This document shows, piece by piece, positions 10,476 to 34,386 of a stretch of DNA of 64,000 nt. Under the pieces are notes generated by a model that saw only the letters and a list, made by a program, of their open reading frames with translations, was not told the DNA's origin and did no database searches. The stretch's first letter is position 1, and the number at the start of each line of letters is the position of its first letter. The DNA comes from Yoonia sp. (GTDB taxonomy: Bacteria > Pseudomonadota > Alphaproteobacteria > Rhodobacterales > Rhodobacteraceae): positions 1 to 64,000 of the forward strand of contig NZ_JACUUJ010000004.1 in assembly GCF_014859355.1 (NCBI RefSeq). Reading direction: 5' to 3'. A program made the translations under genes and the position numbers.

Positions 10476-10638
10476 CCGTGTCTGGGCCTGAGAGATTCAC
10501 CGCATGTCGCGGCTTGCTCCTTCGGCGGGCCAATGGCCACTCTTCGGCGTGTTGCACCCCAACCGGTCCGTTTGCCTGAGAGTGACCGGGGCGGTTGCTC
10601 CTTCGGCGACGGGCTTGACCGTTCTCTCCCGGTCGGCG
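10476..10638 (-). promoter_or_regulatory. Tandem glycine riboswitch (two aptamers)
   Basis: On the minus strand two copies of the glycine aptamer core follow one another: first aptamer about 10638-10563 (GGGAGAGA ... GCCGAAGGAGCAA ... CACTCTCAGGCAAA), second about 10554-10478 (GCCGAAGAGTGG... CCGAAGGAGCAA ... AATCTCTCAGGCCC). The conserved CCGAAGGAGCAA and CTCTCAGGC blocks appear twice in the right order and spacing. It ends about 45 bases before the dadA-like start. Such tandem riboswitches normally switch on glycine use. Confidence 0.93.
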
Positions 10639-10737
10639 TGTACCTGTCGCGGCTGATACGGCAAAATAATGCACCAAGCAAACAAAATCGCTGCCTGCCT
10701 CATGCTTCTTCCGCGCACATATATCCCCGCCGGAGAC

Positions 10738-33411: not shown

Positions 33412-34041
33412 ATGACACGTATCCTTCCCGGCGTTCTCGCCATGGCCACCATTGTCGTGGCGTCCAATATCCTTGTGCAATTCCTGATCCTTGATGGTTT
33501 CCTGACTTGGGGGGCGTTCACCTATCCGCTGGCCTTTCTGGTCACCGATGTGATGAACCGGATCTACGGAACATCGGCGGCGCGCAAGGTCGTGTTTTCC
33601 GGGCTGGTCGTGGGGATCATCTGTTCGCTGATCGGCAGCCAGATCATGCTGGAATTCGGGCCTGCCGTGCCGATCCGGATTGCGATTGCATCGGCAACCG
33701 CCTTTGCCGTGGCCCAATTGCTGGATATTGCCGTGTTCAACAGGTTTCGTGGCGGGGTCTGGTGGAAGGCACCGTTGATCAGCACGCTGACGTGTTCGGT
33801 TGTAGATACCGCGATTTTCTTTTCCATCGCTTTCGCTGCGTTTTTCAACCCATTCAGCGCGATGGCCGCCGAACAGATCATCTGGGCGCAGGATACGGTG
33901 CCATTTCTGGGGGCCGGGGCACTGGTGCCGTTGTGGGTGTCGTTGGCCATAGCCGACTGGGGGGTCAAGGTCGCCGTGGCCCTGATCGCACTGGTGCCAT
34001 TCCGCCTGATTGTGGGGCAGCGGGCGCAGCCGATCACTTAA
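33412..34041 (+). CDS. VUT/YhhQ-type queuosine precursor transporter
   Basis: 209 residues with about six hydrophobic helices. The family motif FLTWGAFTYPLAFLVTDVMNRIYG at the N-terminus (here positions about 27-50) marks COG1738/VUT, the queuosine precursor uptake family of the ECF/vitamin-uptake type. Two residues later GVLVVGIICSL-type TM follows. Weak ribosome-binding site. Immediately after its stop lie the inverted repeat and the small transcription unit described next. Confidence 0.9.
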   Translation: MTRILPGVLAMATIVVASNILVQFLILDGFLTWGAFTYPLAFLVTDVMNRIYGTSAARKVVFSGLVVGIICSLIGSQIMLEFGPAVPIRIAIASATAFAVAQLLDIAVFNRFRGGVWWKAPLISTLTCSVVDTAIFFSIAFAAFFNPFSAMAAEQIIWAQDTVPFLGAGALVPLWVSLAIADWGVKVAVALIALVPFRLIVGQRAQPIT

Positions 34042-34051
34042 TTGCTATCCG

Positions 34052-34078
34052 TGGTATATTTTTACTTGAAATATACCA
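34052..34078. promoter_or_regulatory. 10-bp perfect inverted repeat downstream of VUT gene
   Basis: TGGTATATTT (34052-34061) and AAATATACCA (34069-34078) with a 7-base spacer, 11 bases after the VUT stop. No T tract follows, so it resembles an operator more than a terminator. TTGAAA at 34066-34071 with AATCTA 17 bases further is a possible -35/-10 pair, so the repeat could control the small unit to its right. Confidence 0.5.
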
Positions 34079-34128
34079 AATCTGTGCGAATCTAAGCACA
34101 GGCAAAACAATTGAAAGGAGGTGATCCA

Positions 34129-34185
34129 GTGCATCATGAGGTATTGGAGACGTGTGGCGGGACAACTTGGGGGGTGTGCAGCTAA
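34129..34185 (+). CDS. Candidate 18-residue ORF with a very strong ribosome-binding site
   Basis: GTG 34129 reads MHHEVLETCGGTTWGVCS then stop. AGGAGG ends 7 bases before the GTG, within a 14-base match (34114-34127) to the complement of the 16S rRNA 3' end. An overlapping frame from ATG 34136 gives MRYWRRVAGQLGGCAAKAALG (21 residues). I cannot tell which, if either, is translated. The first has two Cys and two Gly pairs and is unlike a typical leader. The near-perfect site is far better than most genes have. Confidence 0.4.
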   Translation: MHHEVLETCGGTTWGVCS

Positions 34186-34250
34186 GGCAGCCCTTGGCTG
34201 AATTAACCCCAAGGTGGTGATCCTAACCGAACCACCTCCGACATTCAGGA

Positions 34251-34284
34251 AAGGGCTATCCATATCGGATAGCCCTTTTTGTTT
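34251..34284 (+). terminator. Intrinsic terminator of the small unit
   Basis: Perfect 11-bp stem AAGGGCTATCC/GGATAGCCCTT (34251-34261 with 34267-34277) followed by TTTTTG. It ends the small transcription unit before arfB. Confidence 0.88.
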
Positions 34285-34353: not shown

Positions 34354-34386
34354 GCCTCCGGCGGGAGTTTTTTTACCAAGATGAAG
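34354..34386 (+). repeat. Hairpin/U-tract/CCAAGATGAAG element, copy C
   Basis: Plus strand: GCCTCCGGCGGGAG, T7, then ACCAAGATGAAG (conserved tail 34365-34386). The ATG of the repeat (34381) is the start codon of arfB, so the element enters the coding sequence. Tail differs from A/B by one inserted T and GG to A. Confidence 0.82.

Follow-up and report, generated by a model that had tools for sequence, protein, structure and literature searches.

The closest described relatives of the locus analysed here are the small mRNAs rreB and rreR. Hahn and colleagues, in 2017, reportedly described rreB of Bradyrhizobium as a 14-residue frame behind a Shine-Dalgarno (SD) sequence of 17 nt; its RNA is said to co-sediment with the 30S subunit, to be weakly translated, and to be stabilised by a mutation that turns the start codon into a stop codon. 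The rreR gene of the Rhodobacter/Roseobacter lineage is said, in the same work, to encode 18 residues. We take a segment of the window (the whole 64,000-nucleotide stretch of DNA analysed here) to belong to this kind of small mRNA. With rreB/rreR, as reportedly described, it shares the 17-nt extended SD, the GTG start and a predicted free-standing transcript. The 16S complement directly before the start, reportedly at least 16 nt for rreR, measures 17 nt here; the 18-residue ORF occurs here in the Rhodobacter/Roseobacter lineage; and, where rreR reportedly has its own promoter and terminator, the sequence here shows a conserved promoter-like region and a terminator hairpin. The 14-residue frame of Bradyrhizobium rreB is represented by eight loci in our set. 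From rreR as reportedly described, the window gene shows no departure.

Table 1 of PMC7217052 contains two unstructured peptides, one of 14 residues and 1.6 kDa from B. japonicum and one of 18 residues and 1.9 kDa from D. shibae, which we infer to be rreB and rreR. The corresponding peptides in the present set measure 1.6 and 1.9-2.0 kDa. These sizes, together with the match to the reported traits, lead us to class the window gene as almost certainly rreR, the form that rreB takes in the Rhodobacter/Roseobacter lineage, and to regard the Rfam family RF01867 (Caulobacter sRNA CC2171) as a description of homologous RNAs. At the gathering threshold Rfam returned nothing at this segment. A permissive scan found a full-length alignment to RF01867 at 34105-34276 (39.7 bits, E 2.9e-7), and its four other matches (E 1.5 to 6.1) were disregarded. 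Rfam's gathering score is 75, which 39.7 bits does not reach, and the gene is therefore a homologue of the family and not a member by Rfam's rule. The CC2171 RNA has the same extended SD and start, whereas its long-range helix (codons 3-5 with a stretch before the terminator) is missing in the window type. Rfam types CC2171 as an sRNA gene, and in the literature that we found it appears in table entries only; the present assignment connects this sRNA-gene family with rreB and rreR as small mRNAs. Extended SD motifs of Staphylococcus aureus (PMC13009471) have likewise been described as forming long SD:anti-SD pairings during initiation; they appear to concern mRNA starts generally and not a dedicated small RNA family.

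A literature search of incomplete coverage returned no follow-up on rreB/rreR function. A sequence-only reading of this DNA had called the segment the least explained structure in the window; that label does not hold for the kind of gene, which, as far as can be told, is already known and named (apparently published as rreB/rreR). Found in the present analysis are a kept reading frame with a drifting peptide, an internal copy of the anti-SD core, and members in another class. The locus is laid out as follows.

33412-34041: Vut_1-type transporter gene, upstream neighbour
34066-34094, + strand: probable promoter, TTGAAA, 17-nt spacer, AATCTA (sequence conservation across genus loci)
~34101-34280, + strand: small gene unit, from a probable start to the end of the terminator
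34113-34129, + strand: extended Shine-Dalgarno GAAAGGAGGTGATCCAG, 17 nt, complement of the 16S rRNA 3' end
34129-34185, + strand: 18-codon ORF (rreR), VHHEVLETCGGTTWGVCS, GTG 34129-34131, TAA 34183-34185, kept in 53/53 distinct genus sequences
34166-34171 with 34208-34213, + strand: helix enclosing the stop-codon hairpin, 98.7% of cells paired, 2/6 pairs changed on both sides
34179-34187 with 34192-34200, + strand: stop-codon hairpin, 96.8% of cells paired, 4/9 pairs changed on both sides
34213-34217, + strand: GGTGG arm, putative alternative partner of 34232-34236, GGTGG in 54/54 genus loci
34233-34239, + strand: CACCTCC, same sequence as the 16S anti-SD core, predicted to pair with 34117-34123
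34251-34280, + strand: intrinsic terminator, 11-bp stem (34251-34261 with 34267-34277) and U-run, in the letters and both folds, with covarying pairs
ATG at 34381, + strand: downstream neighbour on the same strand, RF-1-domain gene, ArfB-like by our own reading

DNA matches to the segment occur in 57 of 99 relatives. Of these, 55 are among the 56 genomes of the genus, counting the window's own, and two come from other genera of the family; genus genome G037 gave no DNA match for it. Of the 55 genus loci with a match, 54 were read letter by letter, and L106 (genome G015) enters only the wider set described below. The segment is kept far outside close strains, and its structure is real and deeply conserved. 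At the -35 position 39 of the 54 genus loci carry TTGAAA, the remaining 15 having TTGATT (6), TTGACT (5), TTGACA (3) or TTGAAT (1), and transcription probably starts near 34101. A consensus scan of the window for promoters and terminators listed neither the unit's promoter nor its terminator; the terminator that the sequence-only reading had placed at the end of the unit is nevertheless present in the letters and in both folds. That reading had also proposed a GTG opening an 18-residue frame after AGGAGG, which we found in place with its 18 codons, and an overlapping ATG frame at 34136, which has 21 residues here and the same length in 44 of the 53 distinct genus sequences. Its second copy of the SD, AAGGTGGTGATCC at 34211-34223, is 12/13 identical in the window but is not a conserved repeat, because the genus keeps GGTGG alone (54/54 loci) and the following bases vary; it probably serves as a hairpin arm. 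Two further elements lie upstream. The stem CTGTGCGAATCTAAGCACAG (minus strand), from the consensus scan, is not kept in relatives and was set aside. An inverted repeat, GGTATATTT...AAATATACC, surrounds the -35 region at 34053-34077; it is kept in part of the genus only and is possibly an operator or an upstream terminator.

Complementarity to the 16S 3' end, claimed for 14 bases, proved to extend over 17 (34113-34129). GAAAGGAGGTGATCCAG complements, without a mismatch, the CTGGATCACCTCCTTTC that stands at the 16S 3' end in three genomes of the genus (L285, L286, L290). In the window's own assembly tail patterns detected no 16S copy, their sole match being the 34113-34129 site itself. Given the established extent of helix 45, the complement covers the single-stranded 16S tail plus about two bases of that helix, and its last G is the first base of the GTG. 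By computation the duplex with the 16S tail amounts to about -31 kcal/mol and opening the SD costs about 10 kcal/mol, and therefore the 30S subunit should win. The start of the RNA follows the host in the one other-class genome that was checked: in G682 the 16S ends CCTCCTTA (CCUCCUUA) and the family RNA begins UAAGG, which answers CCUCCUUA. Six other-class genomes were queried for their 16S end; four of them yielded none, and the G453 locus did not show it in the strand read.

A duplex of about -31 kcal/mol along the full tail would also suit an abundant RNA that acts purely as a sink for small subunits. We consider such titration very improbable. The pattern of extended SD plus start codon gave 68 matches in 67 of 385 class genomes (a reversed control pattern gave none among the matches listed), so the gene is nearly always present in one copy, whereas a sink needs very high RNA abundance and does not require a fixed frame length.

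The folded RNA is where the site and the anti-SD copy would meet. The window segment folds with a z-score of -5.9 against 200 shuffles, with the SD paired to CACCUCC, and we predict that the RNA's own anti-SD copy thereby locks the ribosome-binding site. SD:CACCUCC is retained in the consensus fold of 52 sequences (alignment A1, 52 of the 54 genus loci, with near duplicates L006 and L277 left out), the column 18 pair being lost in two. Over 54 sequences the mean pairing probability of this helix is 0.95, with two sequences carrying CCUCU scored 0; at the DNA level CCTCC stands in 52 of 54 genus loci and CCTCT in two. Because the SD bases never vary, the helix can display one-sided changes only. 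The sequence ACCACCTCC was confirmed at 34231-34239, and the earlier proposal that CACCUCC is able to pair with either the ribosome-binding site or GGUGG is supported, the former pairing being predicted by folding and the latter putative. Two further helices, one of which contains the stop codon, covary: the cells in which both partners have changed number 50, compared with 13 for shuffles and 4-9 for slid controls. Counted by pairs, 6 in these two helices show changes in both partners, a figure that 30 of 500 shuffles also attained, whereas the other four covariation measures were attained by 0 of 500.

To look beyond the genus we used a wider set of 223 distinct loci, in which the window genus is defined, for the energy and long-range-helix tests, by a VHH peptide (34 sequences, 7 after redundancy filtering, some from other named genomes). 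The best SD complement was ranked against shuffles in 219 of the 223 loci, with a cut-off at rank 0.05. Judged solely on duplex energy, the window type was no better than shuffles (1 of 34, 3%, within the cut-off), and neither Sphingomonadales (0/34) nor the Bradyrhizobium type (0/8) had a sequence at this cut-off, which was reached by 48% of 44 VSHCH-type sequences, 41% of 17 other Rhodobacterales, 28% of 25 MSSE-type sequences and 39% of 57 others. In the examples listed from other clades the SD complement lies inside the ORF; in VSHCH-type sequences it is CUGGAUC..GCCUC, within the T-W-I-V-A-S codons. Rfam's long-range helix, when own partners were compared with swapped ones over 164 sequences, is well supported (p 7e-15) and strongest in Sphingomonadales, and it is absent in the window type and the MSSE type (0/7 and 0/18 in the best tenth of swaps).

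These comparisons bear on the idea of a trans-acting sRNA, in which CCUAACCGACCCACCUCC would block the Shine-Dalgarno sites of other mRNAs and the SD-like part would serve as its own lock or sponge. The conservation of CCTAACCG (54/54) and CCTCC (52/54) in the genus loci suits this idea, as does the anti-SD motif reported for Caulobacter Sis sRNAs (PMC12559287). We nonetheless judge it decidedly unlikely, since in other clades the best SD complement lies elsewhere or does not exceed chance, and since both the kept start, frame and length and the reach of the SD along the full 16S tail would go unexplained.

The reading frame is kept as if translated. Of the 223 distinct loci, 216 had enough sequence and 164 non-redundant ones entered the frame analysis. 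Frame 0 spans 14-27 codons in 87% of these 164 relatives, with a single one below 14, whereas frames 1 and 2 fall in this range in 22% and 18% and below 14 codons in 43% and 42%; shuffled bodies fall in the range in 26%. Within the genus every distinct sequence (53/53, from 54 loci) has exactly 18 codons, as do other Rhodobacterales-type loci listed; Loktanella L138 and L180 share the VHHEVLE start, and it is from such named loci that we deduced the lineage. Among the 42 distinct genus ORFs, starts are GTG (38) or ATG (4) and stops are TAG (28), TAA (12) or TGA (2).

The peptide itself drifts. We counted synonymous changes by parsimony in three clades, the genus part comprising the 42 distinct ORFs of the 54, and found 28/87 (expected 26.8%, p 0.15), 27/138 in the second clade (expected 28.4%, p 0.99) and 41/129 in the third (expected 29.0%, p 0.27). 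No excess of synonymous changes was thus seen in the three clades, with the low power of 18 codons overlaid by structure; a synonymous excess did appear in a non-coding frame of Sphingomonadales (p 0.00016). In the genus 19 changes fall in codons 2-13 and 68 in codons 14-18. With frame and length kept and no synonymous excess, we read this as selection on translation and on the RNA, and not on the product. Of the micropeptide that the sequence-only reading had offered as one option, the kept frame is supported and a selected peptide is not.

A functional 18-residue micropeptide gene with an unusually strong ribosome-binding site is, in our estimate, unlikely. It would account for the retention of start, frame, length and stop, for the interchange of GTG with ATG and of TAA, TAG and TGA, and for the well-kept codons 2-13 of the genus. 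It fits poorly with a synonymous fraction that is not above expectation in any of the three clades, with variable C-terminal residues, and with dissimilar peptides of mostly 14-27 residues in different orders; moreover, Table 1 of PMC7217052 gives the 14-residue B. japonicum and 18-residue D. shibae peptides as unstructured.

We lean towards, without holding firmly to, a reading of rreR as a 30S-gated RNA whose peptide is incidental. Its function most likely lies in the encounter between RNA and 30S subunit, because site, start, frame, length and stop are kept and the amino acids apparently are not. The gene would produce a small mRNA, some 180 nt long and transcribed as a unit of its own, which, when alone, would keep its ribosome-binding site paired to its own CACCUCC copy of the anti-SD core. 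A free 30S subunit could open this lock because 17 nt of the RNA provide a partner for its entire single-stranded 16S tail. Once engaged, the ribosome would start at the GTG, read 18 codons and stop, and the freed CACCUCC might pair with GGUGG. In this way the folding, stability or availability of the RNA may report or buffer free 30S subunits. Translation capacity has to be kept in step with growth, and an RNA that directly reads free 30S subunits, if true, would be a simple means to this end. The retention of frame and length, with no sign of peptide selection, shifts the question from what the rreR peptide does to what the engagement of a ribosome does to the RNA.

Other alphaproteobacteria share the architecture of this gene, and it is also found, though rarely, in a second class. 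The RF01867 profile matched 61 of 289 class genomes, nine above the Rfam cut-off; among 14 control genomes its single match was Caulobacter vibrioides. When genomes were drawn from the whole phylum, a pattern with TC after the start, which misses the window genus because TC is demanded, matched 50 of 299 genomes: counted from the rows, 44 of 86 in the class (Alphaproteobacteria) against 6 of 213 others. Two of these six resemble the family, and the other four were dismissed as ordinary gene starts. One outside member, G453, probably belongs to Gammaproteobacteria; in its class the exact pattern was found in 4 of 274 genomes and a two-mismatch pattern in 5 of 274, and in its family 4 of 118 genomes matched. 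The architecture is present in seven other-class genomes, with frames of 18 codons in G453 (MSRVKVFGQAAMSEGRSS), G682 (MSSVLKIRKSAMSEGRVY) and G1053 (MSSVLNFGDMTMGEVLFS), 22 in G955, 26 in G795, 14 in G759 and 11 in G925. A hairpin and a T-rich run lie 3' of all seven (by eye, with folds computed for five). No terminator was seen in an eighth other-class genome (G1079). L303 has the start and a 25-codon frame, with no terminator seen; L297, one of the four exact-pattern genomes, did not show the architecture and was dropped.

This distribution invites a broader and rather doubtful proposal, in which the RNAs form a family of ribosome-availability sensors in Alphaproteobacteria with a few members in a second class. 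Each RNA would contain a mimic of the 16S tail in addition to a perfect complement of its host's tail, free 30S subunits and the mimic would compete for the 17 nt, and a short frame encoding a meaningless peptide would set the length of the ribosome's stay.

Several single loci stand apart. Genome G070, the sole duplicate among the 67 pattern-positive class genomes, carries two members, L045 and L116, of different type (MSHCH... and MSHGS...). L147 is a match with a 12-codon ORF in a contig labelled Phycisphaerales, which could be a binning error. At L068, L084, L125, L126, L173 and L212 the same extended SD precedes ORFs of 55-59 residues, against the usual 14-27 codons; these look like small exported proteins with a hydrophobic N-terminus.

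The gene appears to be free-standing, and the stand-alone unit of the sequence-only reading is supported. At 60-260 nt downstream, 127 of 216 loci have terminator-like signals; the upstream control had them in 4 of 218. Over the 223 loci the largest neighbour clusters are the Vut_1 gene (40) and the gene before Vut_1 (38); next come the ArfB-like gene (26) and, in Sphingomonadales-type loci, an upstream gene (25). Neighbour strands occur in every combination. A leader-type switch acting in cis, the further option of the earlier reading, finds no support here because neighbours are shared only among relatives. Its most specific form, in which the element would act as leader or attenuator for the arfB-like gene behind it, strikes us as most improbable: an RF-1-domain gene does follow on the same strand in the window, and in 19 of the 29 genus loci examined the next gene downstream is of the GGQ type, but a terminator lies in between, such a gene follows in only 5 of the other 194 loci, and the strand combinations vary freely. 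In the Sphingomonadales-type loci (e.g. L171) the upstream gene family recurs in 25 loci, and synteny is kept inside the order. Elsewhere in the window, at 10554-10641 on the minus strand, lies a glycine riboswitch aptamer that scores 65.9 bits, above the Rfam threshold.
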